In this document: positions 6,816 through 21,933 of the stretch, one piece after another
Layout: every line of letters starts with the position of its first letter
Numbering within the stretch: position 1 is the first letter of the stretch
NCBI RefSeq assembly: GCF_015354405.1
Contig: NZ_JADKYP010000052.1
Location: 1 to 44,998 of the forward strand
Direction: 5' to 3'
DNA length: 44,998 bases
Source of the DNA: Nocardia sp. BSTN01
Lineage (GTDB): Bacteria > Actinomycetota > Actinomycetes > Mycobacteriales > Mycobacteriaceae
Translations under genes and position numbers: made by a program
Notes under the pieces: model-generated
Seen by the model: only the letters and a program-made list of their open reading frames with translations
The model's database searches: none
Told to the model about the DNA's origin: nothing

Positions 6816-6887
6816 GGTGGCAAGAGCTACCTGGAAAGGTGTCCGGCGACGGGCCCGGTGAAACGGGCTGGGCGAAAGGAGTCGACG

Positions 6888-7925
6888 ATGCGGTTCGGAT
6901 TGCAGCTCGGATATTGGGGTGCGGGACCGCCGCCCAACGCCGGGGAGTTGGTGGTGGCCGCCGAAGAGGCCGGATTCGACGCGGTCTTCGCCGCCGAGTC
7001 CTGGGGTTCGGATGCCTTCACGCCGCTGGCCTGGTGGGGCTCGGCCACGCAGCGGGTGCGGCTGGGAACCTCCGTGGTGCAGCTGTCCGCCCGCACCCCT
7101 ACCGCGACCGCGATGGCCGCGCTGACCCTCGATCACCTCAGCGGTGGCCGCCACATCCTGGGCCTGGGCGTCTCCGGTCCGCAGGTGGTGGAGGGCTGGT
7201 ACGGCCAGCCGTTCGCCAAGCCGTTGCAGCGCACCCGGGAGTACGTCGGGATCATCCGCCAGGTGCTGGCCCGGCAGGCGCCGGTGGTGAGCCAGGGCGC
7301 GCAGTACCGGCTGCCCTACGACGGGCCCGGCTCGACCGGCCTGGGTAAACCGCTCAAGCCGATCACCCATCCGCTACGTGCGGATCTGCCGATCTGGCTC
7401 GGCGCCGAAGGGCCGAAGAACGTGGCGCTGACGGCCGAGATCGCCGACGGCTGGCTGGCGATCTACTACACGCCGCGACTGGCCGGAATGTACGACGAAT
7501 GGCTGGACGAGGGGTTTGCCCGGCCAGGCGCCCGGCGTTCTCGGGAGGACTTCGAGATCGCGGCGAGCTGCCAGGTGATCATCACCGACGACGCCCGCGC
7601 CGAGATCGATCGGATCAAGCCGGTGATGGCGCTCTACATCGGCGGCATGGGCGCCGAGGAGCTGAACTTCCACGCCCAGGTCTACCGCCGGATGGGCTAC
7701 GGCGCCGAGGTCGACGAGATCACCCGGCTGTTCCGCTCCGGCCGCAAGGAGGAGGCCGCCGCCGTGATTCCGGACCAGCTGATCCTCGACACCGCCATCA
7801 TCGGCGACGAGGACCATGTGCGCTCCCAGCTGAAGGTCTGGGAGGCGGCGGGCGTCGGAATGCTGCTGGTGACGGTGCGTGACGTGGCACAGTTGCACCG
7901 CCTCGCCCCCCTTGTTCAGATGTAG
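6888..7925 (+). CDS. LLM-class F420-dependent oxidoreductase (Rv3520c-like)
   Basis: The 345-residue protein has the luciferase-like TIM-barrel pattern MRFGLQLGYWGAGPP, followed by AEEAGFDAVFAAESWGSDAF and LGTSVVQLSARTP. This is typical of actinobacterial oxidoreductases that use F420 (or FMN). Rv3520c holds the same position, divergent from the DUF35-ltp4-ltp3 operon. The substrate is unknown; a role in side-chain oxidation or reduction is inferred from the shared operator. ATG 6888 is preceded by GAAAGGAG at 6873-6880. Its stop codon TAG is also the first three bases of the next operator, so this gene runs directly into the promoter of the acyl-CoA synthetase gene. Confidence 0.85.
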   Translation: MRFGLQLGYWGAGPPPNAGELVVAAEEAGFDAVFAAESWGSDAFTPLAWWGSATQRVRLGTSVVQLSARTPTATAMAALTLDHLSGGRHILGLGVSGPQVVEGWYGQPFAKPLQRTREYVGIIRQVLARQAPVVSQGAQYRLPYDGPGSTGLGKPLKPITHPLRADLPIWLGAEGPKNVALTAEIADGWLAIYYTPRLAGMYDEWLDEGFARPGARRSREDFEIAASCQVIITDDARAEIDRIKPVMALYIGGMGAEELNFHAQVYRRMGYGAEVDEITRLFRSGRKEEAAAVIPDQLILDTAIIGDEDHVRSQLKVWEAAGVGMLLVTVRDVAQLHRLAPLVQM

Positions 7926-7940
7926 AACACGTTCTAGAAT
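7912..7940 (+). promoter_or_regulatory. Promoter with perfect KstR palindrome for the first acyl-CoA synthetase
   Basis: TAGAACACGTTCTA (7923-7936) is a fully symmetric match to the KstR motif. TTGTTC (7912-7917) and TAGAAT (7935-7940) are spaced by 17 bases as -35 and -10 boxes. The last two operator bases are the first two of the -10 box. The predicted start of transcription falls on the GTG at 7947. Confidence 0.85.
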
Positions 7941-7946
7941 CGAGGA

Positions 7947-9497
7947 GTGACTTCGATGGAGCCGGCACAGAAGCTGGGACTGTGGAATATCGCGGCCACC
8001 GACCCCGATCGGATCGCGGTCGTCGATCCGTCGGGGCGGGAGGTCGGCTACCGGGAGCTGTCGGATCAGGCCGACCGCATCGCACGAGGCTTACAGGCCA
8101 AGGGGTTACGGCCCGGTGATGTGCTGGTGTCGATGGTGCACAACACCACCGAGGCGCTCGCCGTGTACTTCGCGGCGTATCAGGCCGGGCTGTACATCGT
8201 CGCGGTGAACTGGCATCTGACCGGGCCGGAGATCGCCTACATCCTCGGCGACAGCGAGGCGAAGGTGTTCATCGCCGACGAGCGCTTCGCCGAGGCCGCG
8301 ACCGTCGCCGCCGACGAGGCGAATGTACCTGCGAGCGCTCGCTATTCGGTGGGCGACATCGACGGTTTCCAGCCTCTGGCCGAACTCGGCGCGGGGGAGT
8401 CCGGGCGCCCCGACGTCCGGACCACCGGTGCGCCGATGCTCTACACCTCGGGAACCACCGGACGCCCCAAGGGAGTTCGGCGTCCGCTGACCGGCGCCGA
8501 TCCCGATGTGGTGGGCCCGCAGGCGACCGGCTTCTTCGGCCTCTTCGGCATCCAGCCCTTCGACGACCACGTGCACATCTGCGGCTCGCCGCTCTATCAC
8601 ACCGCGGTGCTGAACTTCGCCTCCATCTCGATTCAGCTGGGGCACACGGTGGTTCTGATGGACAAGTGGGATCCGGAGGAGATGCTGCGGCTGATCGATA
8701 CGCATCACGTGACCCACAGTCATATGGTCCCCACCCAGTTCCACCGTCTGCTCGCCCTCCCGGAGGAGGTGCGGGCGCGCTACGACGTCTCCTCGCTGCG
8801 CTGCATGATCCACGGCGCCGCGCCGTGCCCGCAGGAGACCAAGCGCAGGATGCTGGAGTGGTGGGGTCCGGTCGTCACCGAGTACTACGCGGCGACCGAG
8901 GGCGGCGGCACGTCGATCTCGGGCGAGGAGTGGTTGCGCAAACCGGGTTCGGTCGGCAAGGCGTGGCCGTACGCGGTGGTGAAGGTGCTCGACGAGGACG
9001 GCAACGAGGTCGCGCCGGGCGAGGTCGGCCAGGTGTACATGAAGATGGGCGGTTCCAACTTCGAGTACCACAAGGACAAGTCGAAGACCGAGGACGCGCG
9101 GGTGGGCGATCTGTTCACCGTGGGCGACATCGGGCATATGGATGCCGACGGCTATCTGTTCCTGCACGATCGGCGCTCGGACCTGATCCTGTCCGGGGGT
9201 GTGAACATCTATCCGGCCGAGATCGAGGGCGAGTTGATCACCCATCCCAAGGTCGCCGACGTCGCGGTTTTCGGTATCCCGCATCCGGATTGGGGTCAGG
9301 AGGTGAAGGCGGTCGTGCAGCCGGCCGAAGGGATCGCGGCAGACGGCGAGCTGACCCGGGAACTGATGGAGTTCGCCGCGGCTCGCCTGGCGAAGTACAA
9401 GCTGCCCAAGAGCATCGAATACCTGCCCGAACTGCCGCGCGATCCGAACGGCAAGTTGTACAAGCGCAAACTGCGCGAGCGTTACGTGCCCGCGTAG
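7947..9497 (+). CDS. Acyl-CoA synthetase, ANL superfamily (FadD4-like), KstR-controlled
   Basis: The 516-residue adenylate-forming ligase has the P-loop YTSGTTGRPKG, the YYAATEGG motif, the hinge region GDIGHMDADGYLFLHDRRSD and the C-terminal catalytic lysine in PNGKLYK. It would activate a carboxylic acid to its CoA thioester. N-terminal features (VNWHLT, GLYIVAVNW) resemble FadD4-type enzymes more than FadD3, FadD17 or FadD19. Its operator and position next to fadD19 suggest a sterol-derived acid as substrate. I chose GTG 7947 because it lies 6 bases after a -10 box, as in two other sterol genes. ATG 7956 with GAGGAG upstream is the alternative start. Confidence 0.82.
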   Translation: MTSMEPAQKLGLWNIAATDPDRIAVVDPSGREVGYRELSDQADRIARGLQAKGLRPGDVLVSMVHNTTEALAVYFAAYQAGLYIVAVNWHLTGPEIAYILGDSEAKVFIADERFAEAATVAADEANVPASARYSVGDIDGFQPLAELGAGESGRPDVRTTGAPMLYTSGTTGRPKGVRRPLTGADPDVVGPQATGFFGLFGIQPFDDHVHICGSPLYHTAVLNFASISIQLGHTVVLMDKWDPEEMLRLIDTHHVTHSHMVPTQFHRLLALPEEVRARYDVSSLRCMIHGAAPCPQETKRRMLEWWGPVVTEYYAATEGGGTSISGEEWLRKPGSVGKAWPYAVVKVLDEDGNEVAPGEVGQVYMKMGGSNFEYHKDKSKTEDARVGDLFTVGDIGHMDADGYLFLHDRRSDLILSGGVNIYPAEIEGELITHPKVADVAVFGIPHPDWGQEVKAVVQPAEGIAADGELTRELMEFAAARLAKYKLPKSIEYLPELPRDPNGKLYKRKLRERYVPA

Positions 9498-9573
9498 CCG
9501 CAGTCTCGCCGATCGAGTCCGGACGCCCTTACCGTCCTGCCCTGTGTGGGGCGTCCTCGATCGCGGCGCCTTC

Positions 9574-9602
9574 GAGCCCGCCCGGCTGTGCCCGGCGGGC
9601 TC
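9574..9602. terminator. Hairpin after the FadD4-like gene
   Basis: GAGCCCGCC and GGCGGGCTC form a perfect 9-bp stem with an 11-base loop. It lies 77 bases past the stop codon and before the fadD19 promoter. There is no T tract, so function as a terminator is only likely. Confidence 0.45.
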
Positions 9603-9679
9603 GTCGGCGTCGCAGAATACGCGTTCCGGCGAAACCCGCTGCCGCTTCGGCGGAATTAGTAAACTGTGTAAATCAAGTC

Positions 9680-9708
9680 TTGTCAGGCGTGAGAACACGT
9701 TCTATTTT
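9680..9708 (+). promoter_or_regulatory. KstR-controlled leaderless promoter of fadD19
   Basis: TTGTCA (9680-9685) and TATTTT (9703-9708) are separated by 17 bases. The operator GAGAACACGTTCTA (9691-9704) differs from TNNAACNNGTTNNA only at its first base and shares its final TA with the -10 box. The GTG start at 9715 is six bases after the -10 box, and no Shine-Dalgarno sequence is present. Confidence 0.85.
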
Positions 9709-9714
9709 GGTCCT

Positions 9715-11364
9715 GTGAGCTACAACATAGCGGACCTTGTCGAACACACCATCGACCTCGTGCCGGACCGTGTCGCGCTGGCCGACGACGTCCGCTCGGT
9801 GACCTATGCCGAGCTGGAGGATCGGGCCAACCGATTGGCGCACTACCTGCAAGAACAGGGTGTGCAGCCGGGTGACAAGGTCGGCATCTACTCGCGCAAC
9901 ACGATCGAGGCCGTGGAGGCCATGGTCGCGATCTTCAAGGCGCGGGCAGTAATGATCAACGTGAACTTCCGGTACGTCGAGAACGAGTTGCAATACCTTT
10001 TCGACAATTCCGATATGGTCGCGCTGATTCACGAACGTCGCTACAGCGACAAGGTGTCGGCGGTGCGGCCGAACACGCCGAAGTTGAAGACGGTCATCGC
10101 CGTGAACGACGGTACCGAAGCCGAGGTGCCGTTGCCCGCGGATTCGGTGGAATACGAAGCGGCACTGGCCGCTTCGCACGGTGAGCGCGACTTCGGCGAC
10201 CGCTCCAACGACGACATCTTCATGATCTACACCGGCGGCACCACCGGCATGCCCAAGGGTGTGATGTGGCGGCACGAGGACTGGTGGCGGGTGCTCGGCG
10301 GCGGCATCAACTTCGTCACCGGCGAGGCGCTCGAGGACGAGTGGCAGCAGGCCAAGGCCGGCGCCGCCGGTGGGCAGATGGTCCGCTACCCGATCCCGCC
10401 GATGATCCACGGCGGTTCGCAGTCGGCGACCTTCCACGGCCTGTTCGACGGCGGCAAGACGATCATGCTGCCGGAGTTCAGCGCCCACACCGTGTGGCAG
10501 GCGATCGACCGCCACGGCGTGAATCTGATCTTCATCACCGGTGACGCCATGGCGCGGCCGATGCTCGACGCGCTCAAGGAAGGCCATCCGGAAACCGGTG
10601 AGCCGTACCAGCATGCGAATCTGTGGGCGATGGCCAGCAGTGCGGCGCTGTTCTCCCCGGCGCTGAAGGACGAGTTCATCGAGCTGCTGCCGAATACGGT
10701 CATCACCGATTCCATCGGCTCTTCGGAAACCGGTTTCGGCGGCCTGTCGGTGGCGGCCAAGGGCGCGACCCACACCGGTGGGCCCCGGGTCAAGATCGAC
10801 GCCTCCACCGCAGTCATCGACGAGGAGGGCAACCCCGTCGCGCCCGGCTCCGGTCAGGTGGGCGTGCTGGCCCGCACCGGCAACATCCCGCTCGGTTATT
10901 ACAACGACCCGGTGAAGACCGCCGCGACGTTCAAGGAGTTCAACGGCGTTCGCTACTCGATTCCCGGCGACTTCGCCCGGGTCGAGGAGGACGGCACCGT
11001 GACGATGCTGGGCCGCGGATCGGTCAGCATCAACAGCGGCGGCGAGAAGATCTACCCGGAGGAGGTCGAGGGCGCGCTCAAATGCCACCCGGAGATCTTC
11101 GACGCGCTGGTGATCGGTGTGCCGGACGAGCGCTGGGGGCAGCGGGTGGCCGCGGTCGTGCAGTGTCGCGGTGGCAACCGTCCGACGCTCGAGGAACTGC
11201 GTCCGGTGCTGACCAAGGAGATCTCCTCCTACAAGCTGCCGCGCAGCCTGTGGTTCGTGGCGGAGATCAAGCGTTCGCCGGCCGGAAAGCCCGACTACCG
11301 GTGGGCCAACGAACATGCCCGCTCACGGCCGGCCGACGAGGAATCCCAGGCGTCCTCGAAATAG
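9715..11364 (+). CDS. fadD19: Steroid side-chain acyl-CoA synthetase FadD19
   Basis: The 549-residue ANL ligase aligns along its whole length with M. tuberculosis FadD19. Shared segments include YTGGTTGMPKGVMWRHED, RYPIPPMIHG, DSIGSSETGFGG, MLGRGSVSINSGGEK and RSPAGKPDYRWA with the C-terminal lysine. FadD19 makes the CoA thioester of the C26 acid produced by CYP125. In Rhodococcus it is needed for C24-branched sterols, which matches the presence of ltp3 and ltp4 nearby. The frame is open upstream to 9544, but the promoter geometry fixes the start at GTG 9715. It is the last sterol gene before the accessory region. Confidence 0.93.
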   Translation: MSYNIADLVEHTIDLVPDRVALADDVRSVTYAELEDRANRLAHYLQEQGVQPGDKVGIYSRNTIEAVEAMVAIFKARAVMINVNFRYVENELQYLFDNSDMVALIHERRYSDKVSAVRPNTPKLKTVIAVNDGTEAEVPLPADSVEYEAALAASHGERDFGDRSNDDIFMIYTGGTTGMPKGVMWRHEDWWRVLGGGINFVTGEALEDEWQQAKAGAAGGQMVRYPIPPMIHGGSQSATFHGLFDGGKTIMLPEFSAHTVWQAIDRHGVNLIFITGDAMARPMLDALKEGHPETGEPYQHANLWAMASSAALFSPALKDEFIELLPNTVITDSIGSSETGFGGLSVAAKGATHTGGPRVKIDASTAVIDEEGNPVAPGSGQVGVLARTGNIPLGYYNDPVKTAATFKEFNGVRYSIPGDFARVEEDGTVTMLGRGSVSINSGGEKIYPEEVEGALKCHPEIFDALVIGVPDERWGQRVAAVVQCRGGNRPTLEELRPVLTKEISSYKLPRSLWFVAEIKRSPAGKPDYRWANEHARSRPADEESQASSK

Positions 11365-11596
11365 CCACGCCGAAATAGATAGCTCGCCGAAGTAAATAAC
11401 TGGCAATCGATATCGCCGCGCTCCCGTCATCGCAGTGGGGGCGCGGCGAATTCGTATCGCCGAAGGCGTCGACCTCCGTCGGCCGTATATCCGTCGAGGG
11501 CCATTGCGGTGCCGCGGCCTGCTGAGCACGGCGTCCGCGTCCATGCCCCTACTTCCGGGGTGTTTTCTGTCGGTGCCCTGTGCCACAGTGATCCGC

Positions 11597-12586
11597 ATGA
11601 GCGAACAAGCTTCCGCCGGCACCGTCGACGACGTGCTGCAGCAATTCGAGAGTTACCGGCGGGAGCTGTGTGCTTACGCCTATCGGATGTTGGGTTCCTC
11701 GTTCGAGGCAGAGGACGCGGTTCAGGAGACTTTCACTCGGGCGTGGAAGGCCTACGACTCGTTCGAGGGTCGGTCCAGCCTGCGATCGTGGCTGTACAAG
11801 ATCACCACGAACATCTGCCTCGATATGCTCGACGGTCCCCAGCGCCGGGCCCGGCCGATGGATCTGTCCGGGCCGTCGAGTCCGGACAGCCCGCTACCGC
11901 CGCCGCAGCCGGATTACGTGTGGGTGGAACCGATTCCGAACGCACTGGCCTTCGGCGCCGACCCGGCCGAACATGCCAGCACCAAGGATTCGCTACGGCT
12001 GGCGTTCGTGGCGGCCTGTCAGCACCTGCCGGCGACCCAGCGGGCGATCCTCATCATGCGGGAGGTGCTGCGGTTCTCGGCCAACGAGACGGCCGAGATG
12101 TTGACGATGTCGCCGGCCTCGGTGAACAGCGCGCTGCAGCGGGCGCGCGCGACCATGTCGAAGGTACAGCCCTCGGAGTCGAGCGGCTACGACGAATCCG
12201 ATGACAGTCAGCGCAAACTCGTCGACGGTTTCGTGCGCGCCTTCGAGGCCTACGACATGGATGCGCTCACCTCGCTGTTGAAACAGGATGTCGCGCTGTC
12301 GATGCCGCCCATCGAGCTGTGGGTCTCAGGTCCGGAGAACGTCGCTCAATTCATGCTGTCGCCGGGTCCCTCGGCCTGCCGGGGTTCGCGGTTGATCCCG
12401 CTGGCCGGCGCCAACGGACTTCCGGCCTTCGGCCAGTACAAACCCACCGACGAGCCGGGGGTCTTCTCGCCCTGGTCGATCACGGTGCTGGAATTCGACG
12501 GTCCCGCGATCAGCGGGTTGAACTTCTTCCTCGACACCGACCGGCTGTTCCCGCTGTTCGGGTTGCCGCCGGAGCTGCGCGACTGA
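11597..12586 (+). CDS. ECF sigma factor with NTF2/SnoaL-like C-terminal domain (SigG-like)
   Basis: The 329-residue protein has sigma region 2 at about residues 20-90, sigma region 4 at about 140-195 (LPATQRAILIMREVLRFSANETAEML, abbreviated here as the helix pair before PASVNSALQRAR), and a tail at about 205-325 ending GPAISGLNFFLDTDRLFPLFGLP. This tail is typical of SigG-like ECF factors that carry a fused SnoaL-like domain and usually lack a classical anti-sigma factor. None is encoded beside it here. I chose ATG 11597 as the first codon giving a normal N-terminus. No Shine-Dalgarno sequence is obvious, and GTG 11588 is possible. The 232 bases upstream hold nothing else I recognise. Targets are unknown. 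Confidence 0.85.
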   Translation: MSEQASAGTVDDVLQQFESYRRELCAYAYRMLGSSFEAEDAVQETFTRAWKAYDSFEGRSSLRSWLYKITTNICLDMLDGPQRRARPMDLSGPSSPDSPLPPPQPDYVWVEPIPNALAFGADPAEHASTKDSLRLAFVAACQHLPATQRAILIMREVLRFSANETAEMLTMSPASVNSALQRARATMSKVQPSESSGYDESDDSQRKLVDGFVRAFEAYDMDALTSLLKQDVALSMPPIELWVSGPENVAQFMLSPGPSACRGSRLIPLAGANGLPAFGQYKPTDEPGVFSPWSITVLEFDGPAISGLNFFLDTDRLFPLFGLPPELRD

Positions 12587-12627
12587 TCCTCGAATGCTCG
12601 ACGAACGTAATCCCGAAGCCTCCTGAA

Positions 12628-12653
12628 CGCCGGCACTTCATCGGAGGCCGGCG
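12628..12653. terminator. Weak hairpin between sigma factor and DJ-1 gene
   Basis: CGCCGGC and GCCGGCG form a 7-bp stem with a 12-base loop in the gap between these convergent genes. No T tract follows. Confidence 0.35.
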
Positions 12654-12716
12654 GCGTGCTGTGTACATGTTCGGGAGCGCCGCTCGGACCGGGCGGCGGT
12701 GGCTCCCATGCCGCCT

Positions 12717-13418
12717 CTACTCGAGGATTTCCAGCATCCGCCCTCCCAGAACCGCGGCGGAGTGTGGGTTCTGGCCGGTGACGAGGTTACGGTCCTCGAC
12801 CATGTAGGGCTCCCAGATGGGGCCGCGGCTGTAGTTGACCTTGACCTTCTCCTTCAGGTCCGTCTCCAGCAGCCATGTGGCCCGTGAGGCGAGGCCGACG
12901 GCCTCTTCCTCTTCGTTGGAGAAGCCGGTGACGTTGTAGCCCTGGAAAGGCGAGACGCCGTGAATCCTGGTGGCCAGCATCGCGGACGGCGCGTGGCACA
13001 CGATGAACAGCGGGTTGCCCGACTCCAACTGCGCTGTGAGCAGGCGGCCCGCATCGGCGTCGAACGCCAGGTCGGCCATGGGGCCGTGGCCACCGGGCAA
13101 GTAGACAGCCACGTAGTCCTCCAGACGCACATCCGACAACTCGAGCGGCCGACGCATAGCCTCCGCATCGCGAATGATCGCCTCCAGGTCCAACGCGGCC
13201 TGTTCGCCCCCTGCCATCGCGGGGCGCAGGCTCATCATGTCGACGTTCGGCGTGGTGCCACCCGGAGTGGCGACGACGACTTCGTAGCCTGCGTCAGTAA
13301 GCATCTTGTAGGGATTGGCGAACTCCTCGGCCCAGTAGCCGGTCGCGTACCTCGTGCCGTCCTTCAGCACCCAGTATGTGGCCCCGTTGACGATGAACAA
13401 GATTTTCGGCTTCGACAC
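12717..13418 (-). CDS. DJ-1/PfpI family protein (Hsp31-like)
   Basis: The 233-residue protein belongs to the class I glutamine-amidotransferase-like superfamily. The nucleophile elbow is IVCHAPSAM with Cys141 followed by His142, and the acidic partner is Glu31 in GYWAEEFANP. The loop YLPGGHGPMADL is characteristic of Hsp31-type members, which act as glyoxalase III, deglycase-like or chaperone proteins. Stress protection against reactive carbonyls is the likely role; the exact activity cannot be told from sequence. The start is GTG 13418 with GGAG six bases upstream. It is transcribed towards the sigma factor gene, and nothing links it to the sterol genes. Confidence 0.87.
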   Translation of the reverse strand: MSKPKILFIVNGATYWVLKDGTRYATGYWAEEFANPYKMLTDAGYEVVVATPGGTTPNVDMMSLRPAMAGGEQAALDLEAIIRDAEAMRRPLELSDVRLEDYVAVYLPGGHGPMADLAFDADAGRLLTAQLESGNPLFIVCHAPSAMLATRIHGVSPFQGYNVTGFSNEEEEAVGLASRATWLLETDLKEKVKVNYSRGPIWEPYMVEDRNLVTGQNPHSAAVLGGRMLEILE

Positions 13419-13529
13419 AACACACTCCTCTCACACCGGCCCCTTCTTCAGCGTGACACCCCAACCGCCCTGGCGCTCGTGCCCAGCCATCTTGAAACGT
13501 GGATTCGAGACACAACAGGTGCGCACCTG

Positions 13530-13902
13530 CGTTGCTGGTCCTGGGTGCCGGCTGGTCTGGCTGACCTTCATCCGGGCCGACGGCAACTTCTGGATCGACG
13601 TGCTGCCCGGATCGCTGCCGGCCGCGTTCGGGACGTCGCTGGCCTTCGTCCCGTCGCTGCAGACCGCCATCTCCGCGGCGCGGCCGGAGCAGGGCGGCCT
13701 GGCGTCCGGACTGGTGAAGACCGGCTACCAGATCGGATCGCCTCGGCCGCCGGAGCCGACCGCATCGGTGACGCCGATGCCCTCACCGACGGGTTCTCCG
13801 CCGCCTTCGGTGCCGCGGTGGGGGATCGCGGTACTGGCGGCGGCGCTCGCCTGGGCGACGTTCCGGTCGACTCGTCGCGAGCGGGTGCCGGCCGATGTGT
13901 GA
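13530..13902 (+). pseudogene. Decayed 3' fragment of an MFS (DHA2-type) transporter
   Basis: The translation LTFIRADGNFWIDVLPGSLP, then LASGLVKTGYQIGS, is characteristic of the last helices of EmrB/QacA-type drug exporters. After QIGS (about 13740) the homology moves to a second frame (ADRIGDADALTDGFSAAFGA). It returns to the first frame at the five-G run 13820-13824 as GIAVLAAALAWATF and ends at a TGA. Removing one G from that run would restore the reading. A further shift is likely near 13555. The first two thirds of a normal transporter (about 12 to 14 helices) are absent. I regard it as a remnant left by deletion or insertion. Confidence 0.75.
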
Positions 13903-13917
13903 CCGCGCTGCGGTCGC

Positions 13918-13947: not shown

Positions 13948-13953
13948 CGGCTG

Positions 13954-14345: not shown

Positions 14346-15230
14346 TCAATCGGTCACGGTGTGGCAGGCCTCGATGAGTGCCCGCAATTCGGCACGCGGC
14401 GGATCGGGCCGCACCGCGAGATAGCTCGGCATCCTCGGCTCCGGGTTGCGCAGCGGACGCCAGACCACGCCCGGGAACGACAGATTCGCCGCCTGGGCCG
14501 CGTAGTACACCGTCCAGCTCGGCGCGCCGAAGCCGATAGCGGCCAGCGTGTCCTGTTCGGTGGTGAACTCCGGTCCGAAGGCCGGTGCGAAGCCGGCCTC
14601 CCGGCACGAGTCGACGACCAGGTCGTAGAGGGTGGGATTGCGGGTGCGGCCCACCAGCCGCAGTGGCAACTGCGCGAGGCGCGCGAGATCGATCTCGCGC
14701 AGCACCGCGAGGTCGAGCCGAGCGGGGATCGCGGCCACCAGCCGGTCGGACCACAGCGGCAGCAGTTCGAGCCCGGGTTCGTCCCGCGGGCCGCGCACGA
14801 TCGCCGCATCCAGTTCCCCCGAGCGCACCCGCTTCATCCGAACCTCGGTGTCCGCGTCGACCAGTTCGAGGCGAGCGTCCGGGGCGCGGCGAGCGAAGGC
14901 CACGAGAATGTTCTCCAAGCGGGTGCCGAGGCCGGTGCTGGTGCCCAGCCGGATCGTGCCGGTGCGTTCGACGCGCAGGTCGTCGATGGCGGCACGCGCC
15001 TGCGCCACCGCGGCGAGCACCTGTTCGGCGTGCGGAAGCAGTCGCCGCCCGCCTTCGGTGAGGCGCACCGTGCGGGTGGTCCGCTCGAACAGTGCGACGC
15101 CCAATTCCCGCTCCAGCCGGGTGATCTGCTGACTGACGGCGGACTGCACGATGTGCAGCCGCTCGGCCGCGCGTCCGAAGTGCAGTTCCTCGGCCACGGT
15201 CAGGAAGTACTGCAATTGGCGGAGCTCCAC
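14346..15230 (-). CDS. LysR-family transcriptional regulator
   Basis: The 294-residue protein starts MELRQLQYFLTVAEELHFGR, the standard LysR helix-turn-helix (residues 1-60, with AAERLHIVQSAVSQQITRLE as recognition region). A periplasmic-binding-protein-like effector domain fills the remainder (IRLGTSTGLG and AIVRGPRD). It is divergent from two alpha/beta hydrolase genes, and LysR regulators commonly control the divergent neighbour. The effector is unknown. The start GTG 15230 is six bases after a TAATCT box and has no Shine-Dalgarno sequence, so the mRNA is probably leaderless. The 248 bases beyond its 3' end hold no recognisable gene. Confidence 0.9.
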   Translation of the reverse strand: MELRQLQYFLTVAEELHFGRAAERLHIVQSAVSQQITRLERELGVALFERTTRTVRLTEGGRRLLPHAEQVLAAVAQARAAIDDLRVERTGTIRLGTSTGLGTRLENILVAFARRAPDARLELVDADTEVRMKRVRSGELDAAIVRGPRDEPGLELLPLWSDRLVAAIPARLDLAVLREIDLARLAQLPLRLVGRTRNPTLYDLVVDSCREAGFAPAFGPEFTTEQDTLAAIGFGAPSWTVYYAAQAANLSFPGVVWRPLRNPEPRMPSYLAVRPDPPRAELRALIEACHTVTD

Positions 15231-15236
15231 GGCGCG

Positions 15237-15242
15237 AGATTA
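15237..15242 (-). promoter_or_regulatory. -10 box of leaderless lysR promoter
   Basis: On the minus strand TAATCT matches TANNNT and lies six bases before the GTG of the LysR gene. No good -35 box is seen, which would suit an autoregulated promoter. Confidence 0.55.
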
Positions 15243-15347
15243 ATCAGTTTCGGTGAACAGTGCCAGCGCGGTCTCCTCATTTTTCGGCGCGGCCGAACGC
15301 GATTTCCTGGTCCCAGCACATCGGAACCACACCGGGAAGTGATGACC

Positions 15348-16133
15348 ATGCCGTATCTCACCGTCGATGACGTCCAGCTGTACTACGAGGATCAGGGAAC
15401 CGGACAGCCGCTGCTGTTCCTGCACGGCTGGGGCACCAGCGGGCGGGTGTGGGGTGCGCAGCAGGCGGCACTGGTCACCGAGTTCCGGGTGGTCACCGTC
15501 GATTGGCGCGGCTGCGGGCGTTCGGACCGGCCGGTCACCGGCAACAACCTCGCCGGTGTGCTCGCCGACCTGGTAAGCCTCATTCGGCAGCTCGGGTTGC
15601 ATCGCCCGATCGTGATCGGATCCTCGGTGGGCGCGACCTTCGCGACCGAACTGGCGCTGGCTCATCCGGATCTGCTCGGCGGCGTGGTCGCGGTCGACGG
15701 TCCGGCCTACTGGCCCGGGCAGGGGATGCCGCTGGCCGAGATCATCGGCGAAATGCGGTACCACCGGGCGGAATTCGTCGCGCGATGGGTGCCGAACTGG
15801 TACGCCCCGGCAACCTCACCGGCGCTGGTCGACTGGACCGTGCGGCAGATTCTCGATTCGGGTGTGTACATCGACGAACTGTTCCACCTCTTCGCCACCT
15901 ACGATCCCCGGCCGCGGCTTCCGCAGCTGCGCACGCCGATCCACTACCTGCACGGCGAGCTGGACGCCGAAATCCCGGTGGCGGTGGCGCGGGCCTGCGC
16001 GGCGCTCACACCGGGCGCGAGGGTCGGCGTGATCGCCGGTGCGGGCCATATGCCGCAACAGGAGCGAGCCGCCGAGTTCACGGCCGCACTGCGCACGGCG
16101 ATCGTGAACTTCACTCTGCCCGCCGCGGCGTGA
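15348..16133 (+). CDS. Alpha/beta hydrolase
   Basis: The 261-residue protein has the full alpha/beta-hydrolase set: HGWG oxyanion loop, nucleophile in IGSSVGATFA (GxSxG), acid in HGELDAEIP and histidine in GAGHMPQQE. It resembles small-molecule esterases, chloroperoxidase-like enzymes and ring-cleavage hydrolases; the substrate cannot be assigned. ATG 15348 has GGGAAG eight bases upstream, while ATG 15342 is too close to that sequence. A second hydrolase follows after 32 bases, and the two probably form an operon controlled by the divergent LysR regulator. Confidence 0.85.
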   Translation: MPYLTVDDVQLYYEDQGTGQPLLFLHGWGTSGRVWGAQQAALVTEFRVVTVDWRGCGRSDRPVTGNNLAGVLADLVSLIRQLGLHRPIVIGSSVGATFATELALAHPDLLGGVVAVDGPAYWPGQGMPLAEIIGEMRYHRAEFVARWVPNWYAPATSPALVDWTVRQILDSGVYIDELFHLFATYDPRPRLPQLRTPIHYLHGELDAEIPVAVARACAALTPGARVGVIAGAGHMPQQERAAEFTAALRTAIVNFTLPAAA

Positions 16134-16165
16134 CCACCGAACCAACTGCGACACAAGGATATTCG

Positions 16166-16978
16166 ATGACATTCGCAACAGCCCGCATCCACGGGGGAAC
16201 CGCCGAGGTCGCCTACGAGGTGACCGGAACGGGTCCGGCGGTCGTGCTGGTCCACGGCACGGCGGCCGCCCGCGACCAGTGGGCACCGCTGACCGCCGCG
16301 ATCGCCGACCGCTATACCGTTGTGGCACTGGACTATTCGGGCTCCGGCGACACGGTCGACCACGGCGGCGCGCTCACCGTCGCCGATCTGGCCGCCGAGG
16401 TGCGCGCCGTCGCCGACCACGCCGGACTGGACCGGTTCCACCTGGTCGGGCATTCGCTGGGAGCGGTGGTGGCCGCGCACGTCGCCGCGACCGTCCCCGA
16501 CCGCGTGCGCTCCCTGCTGATGCACGCGGGCTGGGTGCGCACCGATGCGCGGATGGACGCCGAATTCCGCTACTGGATCGAGGTGCTGCGCGCCGACGCC
16601 GTCTACGGCACCAGCCTGTTCGCGCATATGCTGCCGCTGATGGCGTTCGGTCCGCGCTACTGGGACCGGACGAGCGCGGAAGAGAACGCGGCCCTGATCG
16701 AACAGCTGGCGAAGGTGATCGCGCGCGGCGCCGCACGGCAGACCGAGGTGGATCGCACCGTGGATCTCACCGATCTGCTCGGCAGCATCGCCGCGCCGAC
16801 GCTGATCCTCGCCAGTGCGCACGACCGGGTCGTTCCGGCGGCGCAGCAACAGCACCTGCTCGCCGCGATACCCGACGCCCGCTATGCCGAGATCGATGCC
16901 GGCCACGGGGCTCCGGGCGAGGATCCGGCCGGTTTCCACGCCAAGATCATCAGCTTCCTGGACGCGCAGACGGCATGA
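16166..16978 (+). CDS. Alpha/beta hydrolase
   Basis: This is a second hydrolase of 270 residues, with HGTAAARDQW after the first strand, the nucleophile in VGHSLGAVVA, the acid in ASAHDRVVP and the histidine in DAGHGAPGE. It is only distantly similar to the upstream hydrolase, so the pair is not a recent duplication. ATG 16166 is preceded by AAGGA. It ends 14 bases before the convergent VOC gene. The substrate is unknown; two different hydrolases under one regulator suggest sequential steps on an ester or lactone. Confidence 0.85.
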   Translation: MTFATARIHGGTAEVAYEVTGTGPAVVLVHGTAAARDQWAPLTAAIADRYTVVALDYSGSGDTVDHGGALTVADLAAEVRAVADHAGLDRFHLVGHSLGAVVAAHVAATVPDRVRSLLMHAGWVRTDARMDAEFRYWIEVLRADAVYGTSLFAHMLPLMAFGPRYWDRTSAEENAALIEQLAKVIARGAARQTEVDRTVDLTDLLGSIAAPTLILASAHDRVVPAAQQQHLLAAIPDARYAEIDAGHGAPGEDPAGFHAKIISFLDAQTA

Positions 16979-16992
16979 ACACCCGGCGCGGG

Positions 16993-17412
16993 TCAGTTGG
17001 TGCCGGGATAGTCCATCCAGAAGGCCTCCCAGTGGTGACCGTCGGGATCGACGAAGGCGCGGCTGAACATGCCCACCGCCTCCTCCTGGGCGCGTTTGTC
17101 CTCGCTGATCTCCTCCGTGGCGCCCGCGTCCACCGCGGCGGCGAGCAGCGACTCGACCTCCGCCCTGCTGCCCAGTGACAGCGCGTAGATCGAACCGGTG
17201 GCCGCCCGAGTGTCGGCGATCGGGCGGTTGGTGAAGGTGTCGAAGTACTGCCGGACCAGCAGCATCAGGCAGATGTTGTCGTCGACCACCACGCAGGCGG
17301 CGTTCTCGTCGGTGAAGTCCGGATTCACCTTCCAGCCCAGCGCCTCGTAGAACGATGTGGACCGCTCCAGATTCTCGACGGGGAGATTGATGAAGATCAT
17401 CTTGCTGGGCAT
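16993..17412 (-). CDS. VOC-superfamily (glyoxalase/bleomycin-resistance fold) protein
   Basis: The 139-residue protein shows the paired beta-alpha-beta-beta-beta layout: FINLPVENLERSTSFYEALGW at the start (quoted here as the first VOC module) and AFVDPDGHHWEAFWMDY at the end. Its ligand could be a metal-bound small molecule, but the metal-site residues are not all obvious, so enzymatic function is open. ATG 17412 is preceded by an AGAGGA sequence. It lies downstream of the toxin-antitoxin pair on the same strand, with 93 bases between. Confidence 0.8.
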   Translation of the reverse strand: MPSKMIFINLPVENLERSTSFYEALGWKVNPDFTDENAACVVVDDNICLMLLVRQYFDTFTNRPIADTRAATGSIYALSLGSRAEVESLLAAAVDAGATEEISEDKRAQEEAVGMFSRAFVDPDGHHWEAFWMDYPGTN

Positions 17413-17505
17413 GGGGGTCCTCTCACCTGCGTACGTCCGCTGTCACCAATACCGACGCCGTGACGGATCGAAACTCATCGAGAGGTTGTGATTCGGCCGC
17501 TGTCG

Positions 17506-17901
17506 TCAGCGGGTATGACCGAGCGCAGCGACGAGTCGAGCTGCGATGTCCGCGATTTCGACGAGCTGACCTTTTGCCACCTCGATCATGAGGTCGTACG
17601 TATGATCCTCGTCCAGACGGTCGACGTCGATACCATTGCGGGCCAGGAAGACGACGGCCGCTGAGACCGCGAGGCGCTTGTTACCGTCGATCAACGGGTG
17701 ATTGCCGGCAATCGAATGCAGAAGGGCTGAGGCTTTCTCCCAGATGGTGGGGTATGCATCGGCGCCGAAAATGGTCGCTTGTGGTCGGGCGATCGCCGAA
17801 GCGAGCAGACCGGGATCGCGCAGCGAGAAGGGTCCCACCGCATCGCCGCCGATTGCTCGAAGGTCCGCCATCGTCAAGTAGTAGATCGACGGCTCGGTCA
17901 T
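17506..17901 (-). CDS. doc: Doc-type Fic-fold toxin
   Basis: The 131-residue protein carries the Fic/Doc core HPLIDGNKR (His68, Asp72, Asn74, Lys75, Arg76), the short form of HxFxDGNKR found in Doc kinases. Doc of phage P1 phosphorylates elongation factor Tu and stops translation, and this length suits Doc rather than larger AMP-transferring Fic proteins. The motif has Leu-Ile where P1 Doc has Phe-Ala, which is common in chromosomal homologues. The ATG overlaps the antitoxin stop by four bases, so it is co-translated with the antitoxin. Confidence 0.9.
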   Translation of the reverse strand: MTEPSIYYLTMADLRAIGGDAVGPFSLRDPGLLASAIARPQATIFGADAYPTIWEKASALLHSIAGNHPLIDGNKRLAVSAAVVFLARNGIDVDRLDEDHTYDLMIEVAKGQLVEIADIAARLVAALGHTR

Positions 17902-18137
17902 TCCGCGAGCCGATCCAGCAGCTTCCGGTGCTTGTCGGCGAAGCGCTTCGACAGGGCCCGGACCTCGTCGTCGGCGGTCTCTGCCATCTGCTCCGGCACG
18001 ACCGCTGCCACCCGGCGGCCGTGGCGCGTCAGATGAACAACTGTGCCGCCTTCGGCCGCGGCGATAACCTCAGCCAGTCGGTCTCTTGCTTCGCTGACGG
18101 GTAATTCCCAGCTCTCAGGCGTCGGTGCGGCAGTCAT
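17898..18137 (-). CDS. phd: Phd/YefM-type antitoxin
   Basis: This 79-residue protein has the Phd/YefM N-terminal DNA-binding fold (WELPVSEARDRLAEVIAAAE and VVHLTRHGRRVAAVVP) and a charged C-terminal tail (residues about 55-79) that would bind and neutralise Doc. Antitoxin-first order and ATGA overlap are the normal arrangement. The ATG at 18137 has no Shine-Dalgarno sequence but is seven bases after a TACGAT box, so it is probably leaderless. Two palindromes immediately upstream are the probable autoregulatory operators. Confidence 0.9.
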   Translation of the reverse strand: MTAAPTPESWELPVSEARDRLAEVIAAAEGGTVVHLTRHGRRVAAVVPEQMAETADDEVRALSKRFADKHRKLLDRLAE

Positions 18138-18143
18138 GCCCTA

Positions 18144-18176
18144 AATCGTACGTCAGTGCTTGTGTTTCGTACGAAA
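18144..18176. promoter_or_regulatory. Phd/Doc promoter with two CGTACG palindromes
   Basis: AATCGTACGT (18144-18153) and the 12-base perfect palindrome TTTCGTACGAAA (18165-18176) share the core TCGTACG. Their centres are 21 bp apart, two helical turns. On the minus strand the -10 box TACGAT (18150 to 18145) is inside the nearer palindrome, and the farther one covers the -35 region. This fits repression by Phd dimers. Confidence 0.75.
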
Positions 18177-18182
18177 GAAATA

Positions 18183-18227
18183 CTCGCCCGGGCCGAACCG
18201 GTGGAGCGGCGGTCCGGCCCGGGCGAG
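18183..18227. terminator. Long hairpin downstream of fadE27
   Basis: CTCGCCCGGGCCG and CGGCCCGGGCGAG form a perfect 13-bp stem with a 19-base loop. It begins eight bases beyond the fadE27 stop and insulates the fadE operon from the toxin-antitoxin promoter. Confidence 0.65.
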
Positions 18228-18235
18228 CGCCTGCG

Positions 18236-19333
18236 TCAGTGGGCCTCGGCCAGGAGGGTGCCCAGAGCGCGCAGGTGATCGGTGGCGCCGCCGAGCGCGA
18301 ACTCGTTGTGTTTGGCGGCGGTGAAGTAGCACTGGACGATGTGGTCGCGGTCGATGCCTACGCCGCCGTGCACGTGCACGGCGGTGTGGGCGATGCGGTG
18401 ACCGGCCTCGGCGGCCCAGAATTTGGCGGTGTGGATCTCCGCCTCCGCCGCCAGCGCCTCGTCGACCCGCCACGCGGCCTGGGTGACCGCCAGCCGCAGC
18501 CCCTGCAGGTCGATGTAGCCGTCGGCCAGCCGCTGCGCGACCGCCTGGAAGCTGCCGATCTTGCGATTGAACTGCTCACGCTCGCGGCCGTATTCGGCGA
18601 CGAGTTCGACCGCGCGCTCCAGGGTCCCGAGTTGCTGTGCGGCCAGGCCGAGCCAGCCGTGGTTCAGCAGCCACGCGAGAATTTCGGCGCCGTCGTCGAC
18701 GGTGCCGACCAATTCGGCGGGGGTGGAATCGAATTCGACCTCGGCCTGCGGGCTGCGGTCGACCACCTGCTGCGGCGTGACGCGCGCGTCCGCCGGATCG
18801 ACCAGGAATACCGCGGCCTTGCCGGACACCGTGGCGGGCACCAGGATGCGCGCCGCCTGCGCCGCGAAGGGGACGACCGTCTTGGCGCCGACCAGCTTCC
18901 AGCCGCCGTCCTCGGTCGCGGTCGTGGTCGGCTTCGCCGGCTCCCAGTTGCGTTCCTCCGACAGTGCCGCGGTCAGAATCGTCTCGCCCGCACCGGCTTT
19001 CGCCGCCAGCTCGCGCTGCGCCTCGTCACCCCAGCGGGCCAGCGCGCCGGCGCCGAGGACGACCGACCACAGATAGGGCACGGGGGCGGCGGATTTGCCG
19101 ATCTCCCGCAGAATCGCGGTCTGTTCCAGCGCGCCGAGTCCGCTGCCGCCCACCGATTCCGGCAGCGCGGCCGCGAGCACGCCGGTCTCGGCCAGCGACC
19201 GCCAGAGTTGGTCGTCGAAGCGGACCTCGGCCTTGTCCAGTTCCCGCAGCCGGTCGGCGGTGACGAGTTTGGCGCAGACCTCGCCGGTCAGCCGCGCGAG
19301 ATCCTGCTGGCCCTCGGTAAGTGTGAAATCCAT
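18236..19333 (-). CDS. fadE27: Acyl-CoA dehydrogenase subunit FadE27 (ChsE5-like)
   Basis: The 365-residue protein pairs with the upstream FadE26. In M. tuberculosis the two form an alpha2-beta2 dehydrogenase (ChsE4-ChsE5) acting on CoA thioesters with the long sterol side chain. The segment equivalent to the catalytic-glutamate motif NHERVAL of FadE26 reads NHGWLGL here (Gly226), so this subunit has no catalytic base. It retains C-terminal features such as VHVHGGVGIDRDH for FAD binding across the interface. ATG 19333 is preceded by GGAA and lies 33 bases after fadE26. The order fadE26-fadE27 is that of Rv3504-Rv3505. Confidence 0.9.
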   Translation of the reverse strand: MDFTLTEGQQDLARLTGEVCAKLVTADRLRELDKAEVRFDDQLWRSLAETGVLAAALPESVGGSGLGALEQTAILREIGKSAAPVPYLWSVVLGAGALARWGDEAQRELAAKAGAGETILTAALSEERNWEPAKPTTTATEDGGWKLVGAKTVVPFAAQAARILVPATVSGKAAVFLVDPADARVTPQQVVDRSPQAEVEFDSTPAELVGTVDDGAEILAWLLNHGWLGLAAQQLGTLERAVELVAEYGREREQFNRKIGSFQAVAQRLADGYIDLQGLRLAVTQAAWRVDEALAAEAEIHTAKFWAAEAGHRIAHTAVHVHGGVGIDRDHIVQCYFTAAKHNEFALGGATDHLRALGTLLAEAH

Positions 19334-19366
19334 TGTTGTTCCTAGTTTTCGACGTTTCCGACCGGC

Positions 19367-20560
19367 TCAGCGGGCGGCAGCGGGCTGTTTGAGGGCGGTC
19401 ATCGCGATGATGTCGCGCTGCACCTCGTTGGTGCCGCCGCCGAAGGTCAGGATCAAGCAGGCGCGATGCATCCGCTCGAGCCGTCCGCGCAGCTGCGCGC
19501 CGGGGGAGTCCTGCCGCAGATACGCCTGTGGTCCGAGGACCTCCATCAGCAGTCGGTAGGCCTCGGTGGCCAATTCGGTGCCGAGCACCTTGCAGGTGGA
19601 GGCATCCCACGGCCGGGGCGCGGCGTCACCGCCCGCATCGGCGCCCGAGGCGATCTCCCAGTTCAGCAGTTTGAGGAACTCCACCTGGGCGTGGACCCGT
19701 GCCAGATTCAGCCGCACCCACTCGCTGTCGATCACGCGCGCGCCGCTGGAGTCCTTGGTGTCGCGCGCCCATTCGGTGGTCTGCGCGACCGCCAGCGCCA
19801 GCGGCGCCGCCGAGGTCAGCGCCACCCGCTCGTGGTTGAGCTGATTGGTGACCAGCGCCCACCCGCCGTTCTCGGGGCCGACCATCGCGGAGTGTGGCAC
19901 TCGCACGTCCTGGTAGTAGGTGGCGCTGGTGTCGGGCCCGGCCATCGTGTGCACGGGCGTCCAGGAGAAGCCCTCGGCCGAGGTCGGCACGATGAACATG
20001 CTGATGCCCTTGTGCTTCTTGGCGGTCGGGTCGGTGCGGGCGGCCAGCCAGATGTAGTCGGCGTACTGGATGAGGCTGGTCCACATCTTCTGGCCGTTGA
20101 TCACCCAGTCGTCACCGTCGCGGACCGCGGTGGTGCGCAGCGACGCCAGGTCGGTGCCCGCGCCGGGCTCGGAATAACCGATGGAGAAGTGCAATTCGCC
20201 CGCCGAGATCTTGGGCAGGAAGAACTTCTTCTGTTCCTCGGTGCCGTAGTGCATGATCGTCGGCGCCACCGAGTTGATGGTCAGGAAGGGCACCGGCGCA
20301 CCCGCGACGGCCGCCTCGTCGGTGAAGATCAGCTGATCCATCGTCGAGCGATCCTGACCGCCGTACTCCTTGGGCCAGCCGAGGGTGAGCCAGCCGTCGT
20401 GGCCCATCTGCTGCACGACCTCGCGGTAGACGTTGCCGTGCCCGTACTCACCGGTCTGCGACGACAAGGCCTCGCGGCGCTCCGGCGTGATCAGCTTGGC
20501 GAAATATTCGCGGAGCTCGGCGCGCAGCTGCTCCTGTTGCTCGGTATAAGCAATCCGCAT
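19367..20560 (-). CDS. fadE26: Acyl-CoA dehydrogenase subunit FadE26 (ChsE4-like)
   Basis: The 397-residue protein is a close match to M. tuberculosis FadE26 through most of its length. Landmarks are FSIGYSEPGAGTDLASLRTT (FAD and substrate loop), GQKMWTSLIQYADY, the catalytic base Glu244 in NHERVAL and the C-terminal ILTFGGGTNEVQRDIIA. It oxidises the steroid-CoA side chain at the alpha-beta position in the first beta-oxidation cycle, with FadE27 as partner. The ATG at 20560 is preceded by GAGG. A perfect KstR site lies 121 bases upstream, shared with divergent fdxD. Confidence 0.93.
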   Translation of the reverse strand: MRIAYTEQQEQLRAELREYFAKLITPERREALSSQTGEYGHGNVYREVVQQMGHDGWLTLGWPKEYGGQDRSTMDQLIFTDEAAVAGAPVPFLTINSVAPTIMHYGTEEQKKFFLPKISAGELHFSIGYSEPGAGTDLASLRTTAVRDGDDWVINGQKMWTSLIQYADYIWLAARTDPTAKKHKGISMFIVPTSAEGFSWTPVHTMAGPDTSATYYQDVRVPHSAMVGPENGGWALVTNQLNHERVALTSAAPLALAVAQTTEWARDTKDSSGARVIDSEWVRLNLARVHAQVEFLKLLNWEIASGADAGGDAAPRPWDASTCKVLGTELATEAYRLLMEVLGPQAYLRQDSPGAQLRGRLERMHRACLILTFGGGTNEVQRDIIAMTALKQPAAAR

Positions 20561-20681
20561 GGCGGTTACCTCGTACTCGGTGATGTGATGGCGGATGTGA
20601 CGACATCGCCCCTGTGACGGTCGGCCCGGCGGCGGTCCGCGCCGGGCCGATCTGCCCTGACGTCGATCATTGCATATCTAC

Positions 20682-20695
20682 TGAAACATGTTCCA
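20682..20695. promoter_or_regulatory. KstR operator between fadE26 and fdxD
   Basis: TGAAACATGTTCCA is a full match to TNNAACNNGTTNNA in the divergent promoter region. It is 87 bases from the fdxD start and 121 from the fadE26 start. Confidence 0.85.
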
Positions 20696-20782
20696 GTATG
20701 GAAACCGAATCCGGCCGCTTCGGCCGCAGCGGCCCGGCCGGGCTTGTAGGCTCGGCACTACCTGGTGGTGAAGGAGTTATCA

Positions 20783-20971
20783 ATGAAGGTCAGTGTGGAT
20801 TTCGACCAGTGCGAGGCCAACGGTATTTGCGTCGGAATCGCCCCCGACGTCTTCGAACTCGACGATGAGGACCAGCTGCACATCCTCACCGCCGACGTGC
20901 CTGAGGACCGGCTCTCCGATGTCGAGACCGCCGTCGCGCAATGCCCGAAGGCTGCCCTGCGGTTGCAGTGA
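20783..20971 (+). CDS. fdxD: Single-cluster ferredoxin FdxD
   Basis: This 62-residue acidic ferredoxin has three cluster cysteines: Cys10 and Cys16 in QCEANGIC, and Cys54 in QCPKAAL. That is the pattern of [3Fe-4S] ferredoxins serving actinobacterial P450s and dehydrogenases. It corresponds to Rv3503c, which also lies beside fadE26. CYP125 or a similar sterol oxygenase is a plausible partner. ATG 20783 has AAGGAG six bases upstream, which rules out the longer GTG start at 20765. Confidence 0.9.
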   Translation: MKVSVDFDQCEANGICVGIAPDVFELDDEDQLHILTADVPEDRLSDVETAVAQCPKAALRLQ

Positions 20972-20980
20972 AATGGATGC

Positions 20981-21009
20981 TTGCCGATAACTGGAACACG
21001 TTCTAGAGT
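20981..21009 (+). promoter_or_regulatory. KstR-controlled leaderless promoter of the SDR gene
   Basis: TTGCCG (20981-20986) and TAGAGT (21004-21009) have a 17-base spacer. The operator TGGAACACGTTCTA (20992-21005) is a full motif match and shares its final TA with the -10 box. The GTG at 21016 is six bases further on, without a Shine-Dalgarno sequence. Confidence 0.85.
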
Positions 21010-21015
21010 CACGGC

Positions 21016-21933
21016 GTGAGTGAATCGTCGAATCAGTCGGGGACGGATCTGTCCGGCAAGGTAGCGATCGTGACCGGAGCCGGCGCGGGCCTCGGACGGG
21101 CCGAAGCGCTGGCGCTGGCCGGGGCCGGCGCCTCGGTGGTGGTCAACGACCTGGCCGAAAGCGAGGCGGTGGCCGCCACCCTCGCCGATATTCGCGCGCT
21201 GGGCGCGAAAGCGGAATTCGTGGGTGGCAGTGTGGCCGAGCGCGCCACCGCCGACGCCCTGATTCGTACGGCGGACGAGACCTTCGGCGGTGTGGACATC
21301 GTCGTCAACAATGCGGGAATCGTCCGCGACCGCATGCTTTTCAATCTGTCCGACGAGGACTGGGACGCGGTCCTCGCGGTCCATCTGCGCGGCCATTTCC
21401 TGTTGTCGCGTAATGCCGCCGCCTACTGGCGCGGTAAATCGAAGGAATCCGGTGCTCCAATTTACGGGCGCCTGATCAACACATCATCGGAAGCCGGTTT
21501 GCTGGGTCCGGAAGGGCAGCCGAATTACGCGGCCGCGAAAGCCGGAATCACCGCGCTGACGCTGTCCGCCTCGCGCGGATTGTCGCGATACGGCGTGCGC
21601 GCCAACGCCATCTGCCCGCGGGCCCGGACCGCCATGACGGAATCGGTCTTCTCCGCCGCTCCCGAAGGGGATGTGGACCCGCTGGCGCCGGAACATGTCG
21701 CCCGGCTCGTCGCCTACCTGGCCTCCCCGGGCGCCGAGGCGATCAACGGTCAGGTGTTCGTCGTGTACGGCCCGATGGTCGCGCTGATGGCCGCACCCGA
21801 AGTCGAGGCTCGCTTCGACGCCGCCGGCGCGGAATGGAGTGCCGACGCGCTGGCCGACACACTCGGCACCTACTTCGCCGAGCGCCCCGCCGGGCGTACG
21901 TTTTCTGCGAGTTCGCTGCACGATCTCGGCTGA
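21016..21933 (+). CDS. hsd4A: SDR-family steroid/3-hydroxyacyl-CoA dehydrogenase (Hsd4A-like)
   Basis: The 305-residue short-chain dehydrogenase has the Rossmann motif VTGAGAGLGRA, NNAG, the active-site serine in INTSSEAG and the YAAAK tyrosine-lysine pair. The layout and length resemble the 17beta-HSD4-type (hydroxyacyl-CoA) dehydrogenases, and the position next to fdxD and mce4 equals Rv3502c. It is expected to oxidise 3-hydroxyacyl-CoA intermediates of the sterol side chain, with possible 17-hydroxysteroid activity. The symbol rests on synteny and family, so another SDR name is possible. The start is GTG 21016, set by the promoter geometry. Confidence 0.82.
   Translation: MSESSNQSGTDLSGKVAIVTGAGAGLGRAEALALAGAGASVVVNDLAESEAVAATLADIRALGAKAEFVGGSVAERATADALIRTADETFGGVDIVVNNAGIVRDRMLFNLSDEDWDAVLAVHLRGHFLLSRNAAAYWRGKSKESGAPIYGRLINTSSEAGLLGPEGQPNYAAAKAGITALTLSASRGLSRYGVRANAICPRARTAMTESVFSAAPEGDVDPLAPEHVARLVAYLASPGAEAINGQVFVVYGPMVALMAAPEVEARFDAAGAEWSADALADTLGTYFAERPAGRTFSASSLHDLG

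Follow-up and report, generated by a model that had tools for sequence, protein, structure and literature searches.

Predicted KstR operators, -10 boxes and start codons in fixed spacing at three genes of Nocardia sp. BSTN01, and conservation of the arrangement at fadD19-type genes across the order

In the kstR/fadE34 intergenic region, a 14-bp palindrome, TAGAAC(N2)GTTCTA, partly overlaps a conserved -10 box (Kendall 2007, PMC1995591). A related arrangement was found three times in a 44,998-nt stretch of DNA from Nocardia sp. BSTN01 (GCF_015354405.1, contig NZ_JADKYP010000052.1; this whole stretch is called the window, and all coordinates refer to it). Here, a predicted KstR operator, a -10 box and a GTG start codon follow one another at the same distances in front of three genes of cholesterol breakdown, namely, an acyl-CoA synthetase gene, a fadD19-type acyl-CoA synthetase gene and an SDR oxidoreductase gene. 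As is suggested below for the window, the overlap was proposed by Kendall 2007 to block RNA polymerase, and the alignment in that study includes Nocardia farcinica. In contrast to the arrangement described here, the start codon is not tied to the promoter in the available text of that study, which makes no claim of leaderless transcription and in which the start sites are unmapped (PMC1995591). According to a comparative study, both the sequence and the position of KstR sites are kept as far as Rhodococcus and Nocardia (PMC3388012), and KstR is reported to be released by CoA-thioester metabolites of cholesterol (PMC8228715, PMC5348764).

The kstD3 gene of Rhodococcus ruber Chol-4 comes close to the present case, as its KstR sites lie around a short promoter that has been called possibly leaderless, and a stretch of 23 bp ahead of the ATG is enough (PMC5348764; PMC8228715). 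However, this is another gene, and its 5′ end was not obtained (PMC5348764). In M. tuberculosis, promoters of the TANNNT type and transcripts without a leader are frequent (Cortes 2013, PMC3898074), and the mycobacterial leaderless class resembles the sites in the window in that the -10 box stands shortly before a leaderless ATG or GTG start (PMC3898074; Li 2017, PMC5741613). These two papers deal with a general class, however, and KstR is unmentioned in the main text of either. Since the overlap of operator and -10 box (PMC1995591) and leaderless TANNNT promoters (PMC3898074, PMC5741613) are published, this kind of arrangement is already known; the fresh part is that it holds across the order at fadD19. 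No prior statement of the fixed module at these genes, or of its hold across the order at fadD19, was found in a literature search, whose coverage was partial and which gives no proof of absence.

Are the three sites really the same? The acyl-CoA synthetase gene starting at GTG 7947 is preceded by the -35 box TTGTTC (7912..7917), the predicted operator TAGAACACGTTCTA (7923..7936) and the -10 box TAGAAT (7935..7940), which has its TA in common with the operator and is of the TAGATT type in many relatives. In front of the fadD19-type gene, which starts at GTG 9715, lie the -35 box TTGTCA (9680..9685), the predicted operator GAGAACACGTTCTA (9691..9704), whose first base is off the published consensus, and the -10 box TATTTT (9703..9708). 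The SDR gene, starting at GTG 21016, has the -35 box TTGCCG (20981..20986), the predicted operator TGGAACACGTTCTA (20992..21005) and the -10 box TAGAGT (21004..21009). All of these elements are on the plus strand. An earlier note on the window had called the elements identical. At all three sites, the palindrome does end in GTTCTA with its final TA opening a TANNNT box, a TTG -35 box stands before the -10 box with a 17-base spacer, and the GTG lies exactly 10 bases past the operator and 6 bases past the -10 box. The -10 boxes, on the other hand, are alike only as TANNNT, and the left arms of the operators differ (TAG, GAG and TGG). The consensus TnnAACnnGTTnnA is fully matched at 7923 and 20992, while G replaces the first T at 9691. 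The spacer of 17 bases at 3/3 sites is that of a SigA-type promoter (-35 and -10 boxes with a spacer near 17), and the distance of 6 bases at 3/3 sites (6-7 in orthologs) is one that would make the start codon position +1.

The gene at 7947..9497 (plus strand) encodes an acyl-CoA synthetase of the AMP-binding kind. The best 25 NCBIfam matches of its protein are all under the cut-off, and I take the protein to be FadD17-like. The gene at 9715..11364 (plus strand) encodes a protein matching NF005863 (800.5 bits against a cut-off of 543) in an alignment that begins at residue 1, and this protein is presumably of the FadD19 type; among the named loci, its identity is 99% to N. kruczakiae and 98% to N. 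africana, and these loci put the window within Nocardia, close to the two species. The SDR gene at 21016..21933 (plus strand; NF005862, 491.5 bits against a cut-off of 414) adjoins an MCE (Mce4-type) cluster, with an MlaE-type permease gene and an MCE gene with an Mce4 cholesterol-porter domain downstream. The genome also has a gene for KstR (NF033703, 334.6 bits against a cut-off of 280); the best PDB match of its product is KstR (1.2e-84), and the gene adjoins a perfect TAGAACATGTTCTA.

Conservation was assessed in an order sample of 150 genomes and in 80 named loci, and a module was scored where operator and TANNNT were followed by an in-frame RTG (GTG or ATG) at 6 or 7 bases. The fadD19-type gene was present at E <= 1e-170 in 38 genomes of the order sample, all of which were read, the window included, and 36/38 have the module. 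The two remaining loci, L250 and L255, have AACNNGTT and TANNNT within 150 bases and no in-frame RTG within 60, with Shine-Dalgarno matches of 4-5 bases ahead of a candidate start. Among the named loci, the module was found in 78 of the 78 that were readable (the N-terminus is missing at L200, and L213 is at the edge of a contig). The fadD19-type module spans the families f2, f12 and f14 of the order; among its 101 tallied start codons, 93 are GTG and 8 are ATG. The 7947 gene gave 27 matches in the order sample, of which 23 were tallied (four second copies at 49% were left out) and 7 of these are below 60% identity. Thirteen of the 16 orthologs have the module, while L094 has the operator only and L095 and L097 have neither. 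In the 80 named loci, 34/34 readable orthologs of this gene have the module; for the rest, the gene could not be found in the retrieved sequence (32), was below 65% (13) or was unaligned at the N-terminus (1). As judged from the aligned sequences of these orthologs, the geometry is beyond chance.

In the 7.79-Mb genome, the pattern GAACNNGTTCNANNNTN6RTG is matched only 3 times, at the three sites, and its reversed-pattern control has 0 matches. The earlier note had proposed a search for the geometry in related genomes. It was matched in 118/149 genomes of the genus, compared with 2/149 for the control, and the ortholog alignment agrees, although the pattern is loose and some of the genus matches (e.g., GTTCGA types) are possibly not KstR sites. 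It could still be argued that three unrelated sites of one genome merely happen to share the exact 10-base spacing, since there are only 3 exact matches in this genome and most sites with operator and TANNNT are spaced otherwise. However, such a coincidence can hardly be credited in view of the genus scan with its control and of the fadD19-type copy, which holds across the order sample. Chance spacing was ruled out by the genus scan with its control and, at the 9715 and 7947 genes, by orthology.

When the consensus is relaxed to TNNAACNNGTTNNA, the genome yields 68 sites versus 19 for the corresponding control. Operator plus TANNNT was matched 30 times in the genome, and an RTG at 6 bases opening an open reading frame (ORF) of at least 90 amino acids was found in 4 of these, namely, the three genes in the window and the ATG of a 145-residue ORF. 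Four more places (L224, L230 on the minus strand, L237 and L246) have such an RTG at 4-8 bases, and the remaining matches have none nearer than 14 bases. With only 4/30, the module as a rule for the whole regulon was ruled out. The 145-residue ORF lies at L247:1501-1956 behind a KstR-type site with the exact 6-base geometry and may be a further KstR target; it has no Pfam or NCBIfam match. The L237 gene, with Epimerase and 3Beta_HSD domain matches, has an operator and -10 box with ATG at 8 bases. A KstR-dependent promoter of MSMEG_5228 was reportedly described by Uhia in 2011, with a footprint over the -35 and -10 boxes and transcription from the ATG giving a leaderless mRNA. That case is said to concern a different gene (3-beta-HSD) in a different genus.

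The distance between -10 box and start codon was counted in 212 distinct stretches with operator and TANNNT from the named loci (1.6 Mb), counts which are dominated by the three gene families and are not independent. An RTG opening an ORF of at least 100 amino acids stands at 6 bases in 57 and at 7 bases in 68, while none stands at 2-5 or 8 bases. Other RTGs lie mainly at 39-40, 46-49 and 51-52 bases, and 59/212 stretches have none within 60. In an operator-free TANNNT control (n=2747), RTG was found at 6 bases in 1.2% and at 7 bases in 2.3%. Compared with the start in the window, that of the 7947 gene is shifted by up to 7 codons downstream or up to 14 upstream in its 46 module orthologs. Since the distance to the -10 box stays 6-7 bases while the N-terminus moves, the start follows the promoter at this gene.

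A match to the anti-Shine-Dalgarno sequence was defined as 3 or more bases, containing GG, at -20 to -5. No such match exists at 7947, 9715 or 21016, in agreement with the earlier note. Among distinct module starts, 66/73 of the fadD19 type, 32/34 of the 7947 gene and 25/31 of the SDR gene have no match, compared with a baseline of 43% before any RTG in the window. Conversely, 50/51 distinct non-module orthologs have a Shine-Dalgarno match, an optimistic figure since the best of several candidate starts was taken. ATG 7956 has a 5-base match, and the lack of a Shine-Dalgarno sequence at that gene thus applies to GTG 7947 only.

Is the conserved block a promoter, or an extended KstR operator only, with the real promoter lying elsewhere and producing ordinary leaders? 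The operator is indeed among the most conserved parts, and there are sites where KstR may block elongation instead (Kendall 2007, PMC1995591). However, TTG at a spacer of 17 or 18, which was no selection criterion, was found in all module orthologs tallied: 101/101 of the fadD19 type (17 in 99, 18 in 2), 46/46 of the 7947 gene (17 in 45, 18 in 1) and 55/55 of the SDR gene (17 in 45, 18 in 10). This tally is smaller than the ortholog counts, since it ended at any earlier RTG in frame and required GTTCTA. The TTG and the last T of TANNNT are both kept, both lie outside the palindrome and on opposite sides of it, whereas the mirror position of that last T is unkept (A in 22/64 of the fadD19 type, 11/34 of the 7947 gene and 11/34 of the SDR gene). 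In distinct stretches of the fadD19 type, the right arm has CTA in 64/64 and the left outer T is present in 10/64; the outer arms and the -10 box were unconstrained in this count, but the module was preferred where a stretch had several AACNNGTT. The left outer T is kept in 34/34 at the 7947 gene and 28/34 at the SDR gene. The lopsidedness of the operator is strong at fadD19, slight at the SDR gene and absent at the 7947 gene, and the outer left base seems dispensable at fadD19-type orthologs. That the right arm is kept more than the left fits a second constraint, as would be expected if the arm doubles as the -10 box. Together with the start codons confined to 6-7 bases in the named loci and the depletion of Shine-Dalgarno matches, these features make an extended operator without a promoter very improbable.

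It is highly likely, as far as comparison of sequences can tell, that each of the three genes has a SigA-type promoter blocked by KstR, from which the transcript begins on the start codon. The KstR operator would be set in the promoter spacer, with its right arm GTTCTA supplying the first two bases of the -10 box. Because the right arm overlaps the -10 box, a KstR dimer and RNA polymerase would be unable to occupy the site together. A sterol-CoA intermediate would release KstR, transcription would then begin 6-7 bases past the -10 box on the first base of the GTG or ATG, and the leaderless mRNA would be translated without a Shine-Dalgarno sequence. The comparative evidence fits the occlusion with leaderless starts suggested in the earlier note, and I infer the mechanism from it, that is, binding of KstR at these sites, repression, the 5′ ends of the transcripts and leaderless translation.

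Several observations weigh against such promoters. Transcripts that read through from the upstream gene, which has its stop codon within the operator, could make use of the GAGGAG ahead of ATG 7956. The start of the 7947 gene might then be ATG 7956, with GAGGAG (7942-7947) in front of it, on transcripts of read-through or mixed origin; the 5-base match before 7956, with none before 7947, would suit this, as would the short distance of 21 bases from the end of the upstream ORF (6768-7925) to GTG 7947. However, among the aligned orthologs listed, that ATG is present only in nearer relatives, while other Nocardia and other families keep RTG at 6-7 bases without it, and a 5′ end at 7947 would remove GAGGA. 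Initiation at ATG 7956, which had been raised as a finding that would overturn the leaderless model, is weakened by the RTG at 6-7 bases in all the readable named orthologs and is rather unlikely. As for the spacing, the operator-free control also rises slightly at 7 bases (2.3% versus 0.4-1.5% at other distances up to 20), and part of the spacing signal is thus general. In a gapped scan of the genus, in which 99/99 genomes were matched and distances were counted irrespective of reading frame, RTG was repeatedly found among the matches listed at 0, 2, 4, 5 or 9 bases at other operator sites. Thus, the spacing of 6-7 bases is a rule of these gene families and not of KstR sites at large. The orthologs share descent, and their counts are not independent events.

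The SDR gene adds a further point of this kind. Of its 49 matches in the order sample, 36 orthologs were read, and only 2/36 have the module, both from this genus and one of them the window itself; 21 of the others are without AACNNGTT in the stretch, 10 have the operator only, and 3 have operator and TANNNT without a start at 6-7 bases. In addition, L110, L167 and L181 of this genus hold the gene without the module. The gene was found in 66 of the 80 named loci and its module in 53 of these. At the remaining 13 (ten Rhodococcus, Speluncibacter L218, and Nocardia L167 and L181), operator and TANNNT are present with no start at 6-7 bases. With 2/36 in the order versus 53/66 in the named loci, the SDR copy is mainly a Nocardia feature.

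Orthologs of the SDR gene in g2, another genus of the same family, are without the operator at L112, L116, L119, L122, L126, L130, L131 and L132. The same loci have a kept block, ACTAGAGGTATTCATAA, upstream of the likely SDR start, and near variants of this block were found at L118, L127-L129 and L137.

Beyond the leaderless promoters favored above, it may tentatively be proposed, though with more doubt than belief, that the operator arm, the -10 box and the first codon at fadD19 are one ancestral unit kept across the order. Leaderless translation itself would then be selected, the promoter would dictate the start of the protein (as the moving N-termini of the 7947 gene may illustrate), the palindrome would be lopsided as one arm doubles as the -10 box, and derepression of sterol genes would be tied to translation free of a Shine-Dalgarno sequence.

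The window has other KstR-like sites (all plus strand) that provide a contrast. The site TAGAACAGGTTCTT (6797..6810) lies before a Shine-Dalgarno-led gene, whose likely start, ATG 6888, is preceded by GAAAGGAG (6874-6881); the F420 oxidoreductase domain begins at residue 42 of the 6768 ORF. The site GTGAACGTGTTCTA (22123..22136), with the -10 box TAATCT (22135-22140), has a longer leader, as the gene behind it most likely starts at ATG 22213 after AAGGAGGA (22197-22204). Overlap of operator and -10 box thus occurs at genes with leaders too. A further site, ATGAACCTGTTCTA (22044..22057), is followed by the -10-like TAGCTT; the sites at 22044-22057 and 22123-22136 are 79 bases apart before the ATG 22213 gene, with TANNNT after both.

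Some other observations were made in the window. TAG at 7923-7925 is both the stop codon of the F420-type oxidoreductase ORF (6768-7925) and the first three bases of the operator, so that a single stretch at 7923 combines a stop codon with an operator, the far end of which belongs to the -10 box. A AACNNGTT pair (1580-1593 and 1657-1670), the second of which is a full KstR consensus, lies upstream of a minus-strand ORF (372-1538). The fadD19-type gene is followed at 11435-12586 by a gene for a sigma-70 family sigma factor (TIGR02960, above the cut-off).

These results provide a comparative case for a fixed linkage of operator, promoter and start codon that is retained across an order of Actinobacteria. 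They support the GTG starts of the three genes and predict leaderless mRNAs translated without Shine-Dalgarno pairing. Within this 45-kb window, similar operators stand before genes of the leaderless type and before genes led by a Shine-Dalgarno sequence, a natural contrast in which the influence of the type of leader on sterol induction would be testable under one and the same repressor.

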